Part shown: piece after piece, positions 21,285 to 46,303 of the stretch
Layout: every line of letters begins with the position of its first letter
Position numbering within the stretch: the stretch's first letter is position 1
Assembly: GCA_024734555.1 (NCBI GenBank)
Contig: JANPWX010000480.1
Location: 2,325,193 to 2,389,192, forward strand
Source of the DNA: Trochalopteron elliotii
Lineage: Eukaryota > Chordata > Aves > Passeriformes > Leiothrichidae
Reading direction: 5' to 3'
Length of the DNA stretch: 64,000 nucleotides
Position numbers and translations under genes: made by a program
The notes under the pieces: generated by a model
The model's database searches: none
What the model was told of the DNA's origin: nothing
Seen by the model: only the letters and a program-made list of their open reading frames with translations

Positions 21285-21455
21285 TCAGGGCAGCTGCATC
21301 TCTGGCAGGTCAGGCAGGTTGCAGGGCTGCCCCTGTGTGTGGTGGCTCTGCTGCTGTGGGTGGAGGAAGTAGCTCAAGGGGTTCTGCTGCGGAGTGTGGG
21401 GCGGCTGGAAAATGCGCTGCGCTGGAGCCCCCGGCACCAGCTCGGGACCTTGCAT
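21285..21455 (-). CDS. CLOCK/NPAS2-like coding exon 20 (terminal)
   Basis: The acceptor is CCCCACAG. It reads [20 protein letters not shown] and continues through a Gln/His-rich stretch to [13 protein letters not shown] and TGA. The last dozen residues resemble the C-terminus of CLOCK more than that of mammalian NPAS2. Confidence 0.85.
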   Translation of the reverse strand: MQGPELVPGAPAQRIFQPPHTPQQNPLSYFLHPQQQSHHTQGQPCNLPDLPEMQLP

Positions 21456-24400
21456 CTGTGGGGAGACACAAATGTGAGCAGTCAGAGCTGCTCCATCACC
21501 CAGCTGGCCCTCTCCTGCTGCAGGGCTGATGCTGAGACTCAGGGCCAGGAGTGTGTGCACCAAGTTCTAAACTGGAGGGTGAGAGCTGTGCTCCTCAGGA
21601 TGTTGTTGCTGTCAGCACAACCAACAATGCCTGGAGAGCACAGAGGGGAAGCAGGACCCATCTGTCCTAACAGGCTCATGGGGAGCCCAGCAGGAATGGA
21701 GATCTCCAAAAGCTACCTGTGTGTGAGGTACAATCTGCAGGATGTGCAATTTTCATGGGAAAGACCTTCAAACAACCAAGGAAGAGGTCCTAGTGTAACC
21801 ATGTACCCACCCATGGCTGGACTTGCTGTTTCACCCCCTGGTAAAGGCACTGTGCCATCAAACTCTGGCTTACTGTGGCCTTGGAGCTATTTATCTGTTC
21901 CAGCATCATCACTCTGCTGTCCACACTAACTGCAGTGCAGCCCATGAGGACACATACCCAAAGCAGGGACAGTTCATGCCCACATGTGCTGACAACAGTG
22001 ATTCATTTCTCACTCTAAATACAGTCCTGCTGTGTGGCTGCTTTCATCTGTACCTTCTCCTCTTGCTTTCTTTTCTAGTATCTTTGCCTGGAGGACTGTA
22101 ACTTAACCTCTGCCATCCAGGCAAGGCTTGGAGAGCGTGTTACTGATGAATTATTAGTGTCAACAACCCCTCTCCTTGGCAGTGTCACTAGGTCAGCATG
22201 TACTGATGTAAACTGTGTGCTGAAAAACCAAAATCCCCTTGTCCAGAGATGTGTGTTGTGAAATACCCATTTATTAAAAGAAAGCTGTGATGGCAGCTGA
22301 TAAAAACCCTGCTCTGATGAGATGTAACAGCAGGAGGTAGGTTTTTCAAAGAGTTTCTCTCTTATAATTCTCCATTACTACAGGAAGCTTCCTACCAGAG
22401 CTCCGCTGGATGAAAAGCTGTGTTTGAAAAACTGGGTATTTCTTCTGAACACTGTGTGATAACAGAGTTTGTTGATAAATATGGCCTTAAGCAGGTGCAG
22501 AGTCAGCCTGGAAAGGCTGAGCACCTGGCTGTGTGGAGATACAACAGGAATGGAGGATATGCAAAGGCTTGATCAGCCAGATAAGCCCCATTTCTGTCGC
22601 CCTGATCTTTTTCAGCCTTCTGATGTTTGCATTCCTGTAGCGGAGTTTCTCATAGATTTCATGTAAACAAAGTGATGTTATTGAAACTGTCCTTCGTGTT
22701 TATCATTCCTCTCTCGAGGAGGGACAATTGATAAACTTCTAGTTTGACCAGTGTGGTAGGAGAGGTGGGAACCTCATCCTCCAATCCACGCTCATCATCC
22801 AAAATCTATATAAACCCAAGTAAGAAAACAAACCTCCCTCTTTTTGCCCTGACAACCTGACTTGCATGCGTGTTGTTGTTTTCGTGTCCTACAGCGACAC
22901 ATCTCTTCAAAAAAACCCCACCCATCCCTGTGCCTGCTCAGAAACCTGCTCCTGGCTGCAGTACCTGAAGGTAGAGGCGGTGCTGCTGGACCTGCTGCTG
23001 TGGCCACTGGTGCAGGTGGACGGGGGTGTTGGCCTGGTGGGGAGTGAAGGTGGGGTGTGGGATCAGGATGGGCGGCGGGGCCGGCGGCCGCGCGGCGCTG
23101 CAGGCGACAGGCTGGACCTGTGCTGGGGGAGGCAGGCTCTGCTGCTCTGCAACAAACCTGCCACAGGGGGGGAAAGCCAGGGGTGAGAACACACACCCAG
23201 ACCCACCCTCAGAATGGGTATTGGGAGCCCAGCTGCTGCAGGAACCAGCCTGGAGCAAACTGGGCTCAGGCTGCTCAGACTTTGCTGACGGGAGGCCCCT
23301 GATTCCCCTCTGCCCACAAAGCACTGACTGGAACTGCTGAAAATGAAGGTTTTTTAAGGCTGTACATTTTCTCTGTGTCTTTGTCAAGCATTTTGTGCTT
23401 TGTAACAGCTAGAAAATGGTTAATTTTTTTTCAACACACTTTATTTATCATAAAGTTCTTCATAATTAAAAAATATTCTCATTTTCCTCCTAACTGGCTG
23501 AACATTTGTTTCATTTCAGACTGAGACTGCCTGTGTTTGCATGACCAGGTACAAGTTTTGCCATGTCTTTTTCAGTGCCATAAAGTGTCCTGCTAAGACA
23601 CTGCAGGGAACTAAGGGCAAGCAGAAAATAAGGGCAAGCAGAGACTCACTTTCCTTGCTGCCTGCTGGCACTGCTCTGCACGGGCTGGCAACTGCTGTTG
23701 GCTGTGGGCATCATGGCCTGGATGGATTGATCCAACAGCATCCTGTGGTGGAAGGAAAACAGAGGATGGTCAGGGAAGGGAGAGGTCTGAGCTCCAAGGT
23801 CCTGTCAGTCTGTAGAAACAACTTGAAAATCCTCCATGAGAGCAGGTAAACCACTACCTTGAAAACAAGCTAACGAAATAGGATGCTTCTTATCACCTCA
23901 CATCTCTCCTGTGAATACATGCTGAGAAGATTGGGATTGTTGAGACTGGAGAAGGCTCCAGGGACATCTTATAGCCCCTTCCAGGACCTAAAAAGGCTAA
24001 AAGGGAGCAGGAGAGGGACTTTTGACAAGGGCACGGAACGACAGGATGAGGGGGAATGACAGAGGGCAGGGTTTAGATTAATTCAGGGGAAATTTAAACT
24101 GACAGAGGGCAAGGTTACATTAATTTATGGGAAATTTAAATGGACAGAGGGCAGGGATAGATTAATTTATGGAAATATGGAGAGAAGGGGATTTAAGGCC
24201 CCTGATGATACAGCATGATGTGCACAGCACACTGGGCTCACCCCTGCAGAGGGAACATCCTTACACTGCCTGTGGCATCCCAAGCCCATCACCCAGCCAT
24301 TCCTGCCCTCCCTGCTGCCCAAGTACTGCTGTTTTCTGTCCCTGTCCCCAGGATGGTGCCAGCAGGGCTGTGGGTACCTGAGGCTCCTGTCCTGGCTGTA

Positions 24401-46278: not shown

Positions 46279-46303
46279 CAGTTCGTTTACACAACACAGG
46301 GCT
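46247..46303 (-). CDS. CLOCK/NPAS2-like coding exon 1 (start codon at 46,276-46,278)
   Basis: The exon spans 46,247-46,303, with coding sequence from 46,278 downward: [10 protein letters not shown] plus two bases of an Arg codon. The acceptor CCCTTGCAG before AGCCCTG shows at least one untranslated exon further upstream. The donor is AAGAG|GTATGA. The start matches NPAS2, not CLOCK, which has an N-terminal extension. Confidence 0.92.

Follow-up and report, generated by a model that had tools for sequence, protein, structure and literature searches.

Clock work in birds and reptiles usually reckons with two CLOCK-type activators. A stretch of 64,000 nucleotides from the laughingthrush Trochalopteron elliotii, hereafter the window, carries a bHLH-PAS gene that a preliminary description could assign clearly neither to CLOCK nor to NPAS2. 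Rebuilt independently from the sequence, this gene lies on the minus strand, opens with an ATG at 46278, ends in a TGA at 21285, comprises 20 coding exons with a coding sequence of 2478 nt (825 residues, single terminal stop), and has 19 introns that are all GT...AG with consistent phases. The rebuild confirms the uninterrupted 20-exon, 825-residue bHLH-PAS gene with in-phase splice sites described earlier. The gene start given there, 46303, is indeed the first base after an AG acceptor; the ATG itself lies 25 bases downstream. The exon 16 donor is weak (CAG/GTTGCT) and was chosen because it keeps the frame and yields the 825 residues obtained by the earlier reader; the exon 16/17 junction so chosen matches that of other birds in the alignment. 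Exon 16 is missing entirely from 3 of 15 other aligned entries (Poecile X5, Parus X4, and Hirundo). The exons are listed here in window coordinates, under the name PASD1 that is argued for below and with the basis of each assignment in brackets.

46247..46278, minus strand: PASD1 coding exon 1, with the ATG at 46278; the exon starts at 46303 after an AG acceptor
44812..44966, minus strand: PASD1 exon 2, basic helix-loop-helix with the two-residue loop insert GHGHPLK (Pfam, alignment)
43961..44052, minus strand: PASD1 exon 3, start of the PAS-A region (gene model, Pfam)
42085..42174, minus strand: PASD1 exon 4, PAS-A (gene model, Pfam)
40883..41003, minus strand: PASD1 exon 5, PAS-A (gene model, Pfam)
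39384..39497, minus strand: PASD1 exon 6, PAS-A (gene model)
38624..38742, minus strand: PASD1 exon 7, end of the PAS-A region; 5' splice site copied in the adjoining minisatellite (gene model)
37011..37093, minus strand: PASD1 exon 8, start of the PAS-B region (gene model, Pfam)
33339..33445, minus strand: PASD1 exon 9, PAS-B (gene model, Pfam)
31881..32028, minus strand: PASD1 exon 10, PAS-B with the HI loop YHQWN (Pfam, alignment)
29749..29830, minus strand: PASD1 exon 11 (gene model)
28806..28929, minus strand: PASD1 exon 12 (gene model)
27655..27758, minus strand: PASD1 exon 13 (gene model)
27123..27209, minus strand: PASD1 exon 14 (gene model)
26024..26182, minus strand: PASD1 exon 15, coiled coil aligning with the CLOCK exon 19 region and with the eutherian PASD1 coiled coil (alignment)
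25358..25555, minus strand: PASD1 exon 16, weak donor CAG/GTTGCT, missing in some bird entries (gene model, alignment)
24378..24583, minus strand: PASD1 exon 17 (gene model)
23650..23742, minus strand: PASD1 exon 18 (gene model)
22965..23157, minus strand: PASD1 exon 19 (gene model)
21285..21455, minus strand: PASD1 exon 20 with the TGA stop (gene model)

The encoded protein has the architecture of a complete CLOCK-type factor. Pfam finds one bHLH and two PAS regions (HLH, E 4e-10; PAS, 9.5e-12; PAS_3, 2.7e-19; PAS_11, 9.8e-24; all above cut-offs), with bHLH, PAS-A, and PAS-B intact, and the nearest solved structures are CLOCK chains (8osj, 4f3l). In the alignment, the basic-region motif is identical across the window, CLOCK, and NPAS2 rows, and the shared residues presumably include the E-box contacts. 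The HI loop of PAS-B, a cryptochrome contact, is kept, with a sequence that matches CLOCK and NPAS2 fully or almost fully. The alignment also reveals a counterpart of the CLOCK exon 19 coiled coil.

Searching the bird's own genome (1.04 Gb, 2215 contigs) with a human NPAS2 query returns 32 matches, 31 of which fall in three multi-exon loci; the remaining one is a weak exon match on contig C84. Contig C44 holds NPAS2, with RPL31 and a TBC1D8-type gene next to it, C59 holds CLOCK, and C452 holds the window gene. Because separate NPAS2 and CLOCK genes exist in the same genome, the window gene is a third paralogue, intact as the preliminary description had supposed. Over the 331 bHLH-PAS columns common to the three proteins, the window gene is 74.0% identical to CLOCK and 75.8% to NPAS2, while CLOCK and NPAS2 are 75.5% identical to each other, and the mixture of CLOCK-like and NPAS2-like residues reported earlier is real. 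With CLOCK the window protein shares bHLH, PAS-A, PAS-B, and an exon-19-type coiled coil, but its bHLH loop is two residues longer, its C-terminal region differs, and it has a locus of its own. With NPAS2 it shares an identical domain set, the N-terminal start, and parallel neighbours (TBC1D8 and TBC1D8B), but the loop insert, the separate locus, and membership of its own clade set it apart.

That clade already has a name in databases. The best 120 of 2293 database matches are headed by entries called 'circadian clock protein PASD1' from falcons and a tit, with 96% identity across the first 539 residues, a likeness well outside what chance could give, and further clade entries among these 120 are labelled NPAS2, NPAS2-like, or CLOCK, or are unnamed. 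Turtles, alligator, squamates, and amphibians also have members among the same 120, which shows that the clade is not restricted to birds. Barn swallow provides the nearest relative among 15 aligned (97.0% over 727 residues). The gene itself is therefore known, and many bird genes carry the name PASD1; in the open-licence literature searched, an account of PASD1 as an intact third CLOCK paralogue with eutherian decay was not found.

A rooted tree of 35 proteins places the window gene within a PASD1 clade of birds, reptiles, amphibians, and platypus (tetrapod PASD1, 100/99). The 35 rows combine three sequences of this genome with 32 of 253 database proteins, chosen beforehand for taxonomic spread, and omit most isoforms and near-identical birds; non-mammalian NPAS2 is represented in the trees solely by this bird's own, covering 49-50% of kept columns. 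Joining the window gene to NPAS2 is rejected by the AU test (p 6.8e-6). When the tree is restricted to bHLH-PAS with the loop removed (34 rows, one Drosophila row being absent from that alignment), PASD1 and the fish rows discussed below group at 100/98, separate from CLOCK, and the NPAS2 rows do not form one clade. Support for the sister order is divided: CLOCK joins PASD1 in the 35-protein tree (81/61), CLOCK joins NPAS2 once eutherian PASD1 is added (85/64), and a sister grouping of NPAS2 and PASD1 is not rejected (AU p 0.21). Neither of the contrary outcomes named in the preliminary description, a position inside the avian NPAS2 clade or the lack of another NPAS2 gene in the species, was found. 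On sequence grounds the window gene is thus identified as avian PASD1, a third CLOCK-family bHLH-PAS gene apparently similar in age to CLOCK and NPAS2.

Membership of the clade can also be read from a small marker. PASD1-clade proteins have two more residues in the bHLH loop than CLOCK and NPAS2, a feature found in this analysis and not a published definition of PASD1. Among the best 120 of 2293 matches, the insert is present in 114 of the 116 rows that have the exact basic motif, and the other 2 differ by one letter; of the four rows among these 120 without the exact motif, one has an altered motif and one starts inside the loop. None of 67 new CLOCK and NPAS2 rows has the insert.

The neighbourhood of the gene bears on how a third paralogue arose. 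One neighbour lies within the window:

2078..10007, plus strand: C-terminal exons of TBC1D8B, arranged tail to tail relative to PASD1 (TBC domain by Pfam; name by comparison with a human sequence)

PASD1 is thus followed by TBC1D8B in opposite orientation, and on C44 NPAS2 is followed by RPL31 and then by the TBC1D8-type gene, again in opposite orientation. We take the window neighbour to be TBC1D8B from its likeness to the human sequence: in the longest TBC exon this neighbour shows 92.8% identity to human TBC1D8B, against 64.6% for the TBC1D8-type gene of C44. The neighbour is also closer in the other matched pieces except the first exon piece, where the C44 gene leads slightly (78.9 vs 76.3%). 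No TBC1D8 relative was found within the 40 kb read around CLOCK on C59, and a search for CLDN2 beside TBC1D8B, covering 124 kb of C452, was negative. Beyond TBC1D8B, at C452:2299789-2306410, is an RNF128-like gene, 53-75% identical to the human sequence, whose open frame is assigned to no family by Pfam. Human RNF149, an RNF128 paralogue, is located near TBC1D8, and the duplicated block may therefore contain three gene pairs. TBC1D8B and the RNF128-like gene presumably correspond to human Xq22.3 and human PASD1 to Xq28, the same chromosome in another place; that human PASD1 does not adjoin TBC1D8B counts against the reading given here.

A PASD1-TBC1D8B pair and an NPAS2-RPL31-TBC1D8 group, both tail to tail in one genome, are the pattern left by large-scale duplication. 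This parallel arrangement supports an ohnologue origin, and window PASD1 most likely arose in the genome duplications of early vertebrates; that suggestion of the preliminary description fits both the duplicated neighbourhood and the occurrence of the gene in fish.

The same description held that the gene was lost in mammals, which is wrong. Tree, profiles, and a remnant of the loop insert agree that the gene persists there as PASD1: platypus has it intact, and eutherians have it in strongly decayed form. Platypus PASD1 is full length and 97.3% identical to the window protein over the 331 bHLH-PAS columns. Eutherian PASD1 was sampled as 57 entries from a search with human PASD1, several isoforms per species among them. 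When 10 of the 57 are added to the tree, all ten come out inside tetrapod PASD1 (100/99). Their stem has length 2.0, and the program warned of long branches meeting and of four eutherian rows with unusual composition. A tree-free test scored three clade profiles, built without eutherian PASD1, against the 57 entries. The PASD1 profile fits best in 57 of 57 (median margin 68.7 bits, minimum 21.6); the two Drosophila CLOCK proteins used as controls score highest on the NPAS2 profile. A remnant of the insert, G[HYC]PxK, occurs in the first 80 residues of 30 of the 57 entries and is visible in the starts of horse, dog, cat-family, and ground squirrel PASD1.

The eutherian decay is graded. The exact basic motif is present in none of the 57 entries, and in the alignment tamandua keeps 28 of 62 bHLH positions, horse 21, and rabbit 11, while in human the region is lost. 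All four species still give good alignments for PAS-A and the coiled coil, and 13 to 21 of 120 positions are identical in the PAS-B stretch; precomputed Pfam annotation records a second PAS match in a single entry of the 57, from rabbit. Human PASD1 accordingly shares PAS-A and coiled coil with the window protein but is without the bHLH and without a recognisable PAS-B match in the alignment.

Outside eutherians, by contrast, PASD1 is not a gene in decay. PASD1 of this bird and that of platypus agree at 97.3% over the bHLH-PAS block; for CLOCK the bird-to-mammal figure is 94.9-95.5% (Tasmanian devil, langur), and for NPAS2 it is 88.5-90.3% (mouse, elephant, leopard). The comparison is rough because the mammals differ between the three genes; against turtles the order is unchanged (PASD1 98.2%, CLOCK 95.8%). 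Birds, reptiles, amphibians, platypus, and at least two teleosts all have a complete bHLH-PAS half under strong constraint.

The teleost members are found under another name. Three fish rows labelled NPAS2, two near-identical ones from the pike Esox (P0247, P0248) and one from Danionella (P0246), group with PASD1 at 99/100 in the 35-protein tree. Their loop insert reads GQGHPRK, the PASD1 profile outscores the other two by 175 to 248 bits, and the AU test rejects a union with tetrapod NPAS2 (p 2.5e-6). They differ from window PASD1 in their database name and are more diverged (83.1% over 325 columns for Esox P0248), but insert, tree, and profile assign the pike and Danionella 'NPAS2' entries to the PASD1 clade. 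These rows are all the fish returned by the human PASD1 query and a true NPAS2 of the same fish could have been missed, so the result concerns the identity of these genes and not the absence of a true NPAS2. Some fish studies describe clock1 copies with one clock2/npas2 (PMC6723592, PMC8674837) or Clock1, Clock3, and NPAS2 (PMC3161366), and a 2004 paper on PASD1 places zebrafish NPAS2 directly behind the murine one in closeness to PASD1 (PMC2364759).

Several other accounts of this locus deserve weighing. That the window gene is NPAS2 or CLOCK itself is ruled out by the separate C44 and C59 loci, the tree, and the AU test. Its being merely this bird's NPAS2, diverged or misread, would suit the NPAS2-like protein start, several shared motifs, and the database entries of the clade named NPAS2 or NPAS2-like, but with a separate NPAS2 beside RPL31 and a TBC1D8-type gene, the rejected union, and a loop insert absent from NPAS2, the idea is hardly credible. 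Nor is it probable that eutherian PASD1 derives from CLOCK or NPAS2, its grouping with the third paralogue being an artefact of long branches or of sampling with human PASD1. The very long eutherian stem and the composition warnings are what such an error would produce; the unanimous tree-free profiles, the insert remnant in more than half of the entries, and the full form kept in amphibian and platypus members make it very improbable. A later segmental duplication of the NPAS2-TBC1D8 segment would account for the like gene order and orientation of the two segments, but the clade also includes amphibians and two teleosts and the three paralogues are equidistant (74-76%), so the duplication is older than the split of fish and tetrapods, and a late duplicate is quite unlikely; a segmental duplication that preceded that split may have taken place instead of a genome-wide one.

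Avian PASD1 is probably a third ancient gene of the CLOCK family that functions like CLOCK and NPAS2 with BMAL1, and that became a repressor through decay in eutherians. Its bHLH-PAS half would pair with BMAL1, most likely making window PASD1 a third BMAL1 partner; the intact basic region would let the pair bind and perhaps activate from E-boxes, PAS-B would be available to cryptochrome, and the coiled coil would serve as a regulatory region as CLOCK exon 19 does. A conserved basic region alone is no proof of activation. In eutherians, the basic region and PAS-B would have decayed while PAS-A and the coiled coil stayed, and a protein that touches the complex without binding DNA would explain how human PASD1 represses CLOCK:BMAL1. 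Human PASD1 is described as a testis-restricted repressor (PMC2364759, PMC5412454) that binds the CLOCK:BMAL1 complex and inhibits CLOCK:BMAL1 (PMC5412454) through a coiled coil resembling CLOCK exon 19 (PMC6406328). The simplest history would be that of an activator that lost DNA binding and retained the parts that contact the complex.

Bird PASD1 might instead repress CLOCK:BMAL1 as the human protein does. It has the coiled coil that human PASD1 uses, and a 2026 study of King penguin calls avian PASD1 'a known clock repressor', citing human work (PMC13111634). Repression by the bird protein nevertheless seems unlikely: it retains both the exact basic motif and PAS-B, which human PASD1 lacks, its bHLH-PAS constraint is at least that of CLOCK and NPAS2, and a pure repressor would need no conserved DNA-contacting region. 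The same study reads a change in PASD1 methylation as affecting a clock repressor (PMC13111634). The alignment shows King penguin PASD1 (P0016) with its bHLH intact and its DNA-binding domain kept, and calling it a repressor from human data illustrates the caution needed when names are transferred between species. PASD1 also appears in the reference list of another bird paper (PMC9456351).

A broader history is slightly more likely than not. Bony vertebrates would have inherited three full CLOCK-type activators. PASD1 would remain intact and under constraint at least equal to that of CLOCK in birds, reptiles, and monotremes, would be present in amphibians, and would be the 'npas2' of teleosts, where true NPAS2 may be missing; placental PASD1 would have lost its DNA-binding region and PAS-B and turned into a repressor of its former partners. 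Under such a history, bird PASD1 should activate E-box genes with BMAL1, the opposite of what its name conveys, and results on fish 'npas2', which may be misnamed, should not be read as NPAS2 biology. A third, highly constrained CLOCK-type activator could bring redundancy and confound knockouts. For the human cancer/testis antigen PASD1, the bird gene supplies an evident intact counterpart and a route from activator to repressor that can be tested.

Other features of the window lie outside the coding sequence or at its edge. The interval between TBC1D8B and PASD1 contains GC-rich, satellite-like arrays at 14928-15884, whose units measure 61/183 bp and 93/219 bp. An open frame at 58737-58976 reads like a CR1 retrotransposon fragment, and Pfam assigns that frame to no family. 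A minisatellite at 38074-38628 (21-bp unit, 26.7 copies) starts within the final bases of exon 7 and repeats the 5' splice site of that exon: AAAGGTGAGCTCT, allowing at most 2 mismatches, matches 27 times there, the exon 7 donor included, against 3.8 matches expected in the whole window. Up to the next stop, nine of these splice-site copies keep the reading frame, so splicing from a later donor would introduce 7-residue repeats behind PAS-A.
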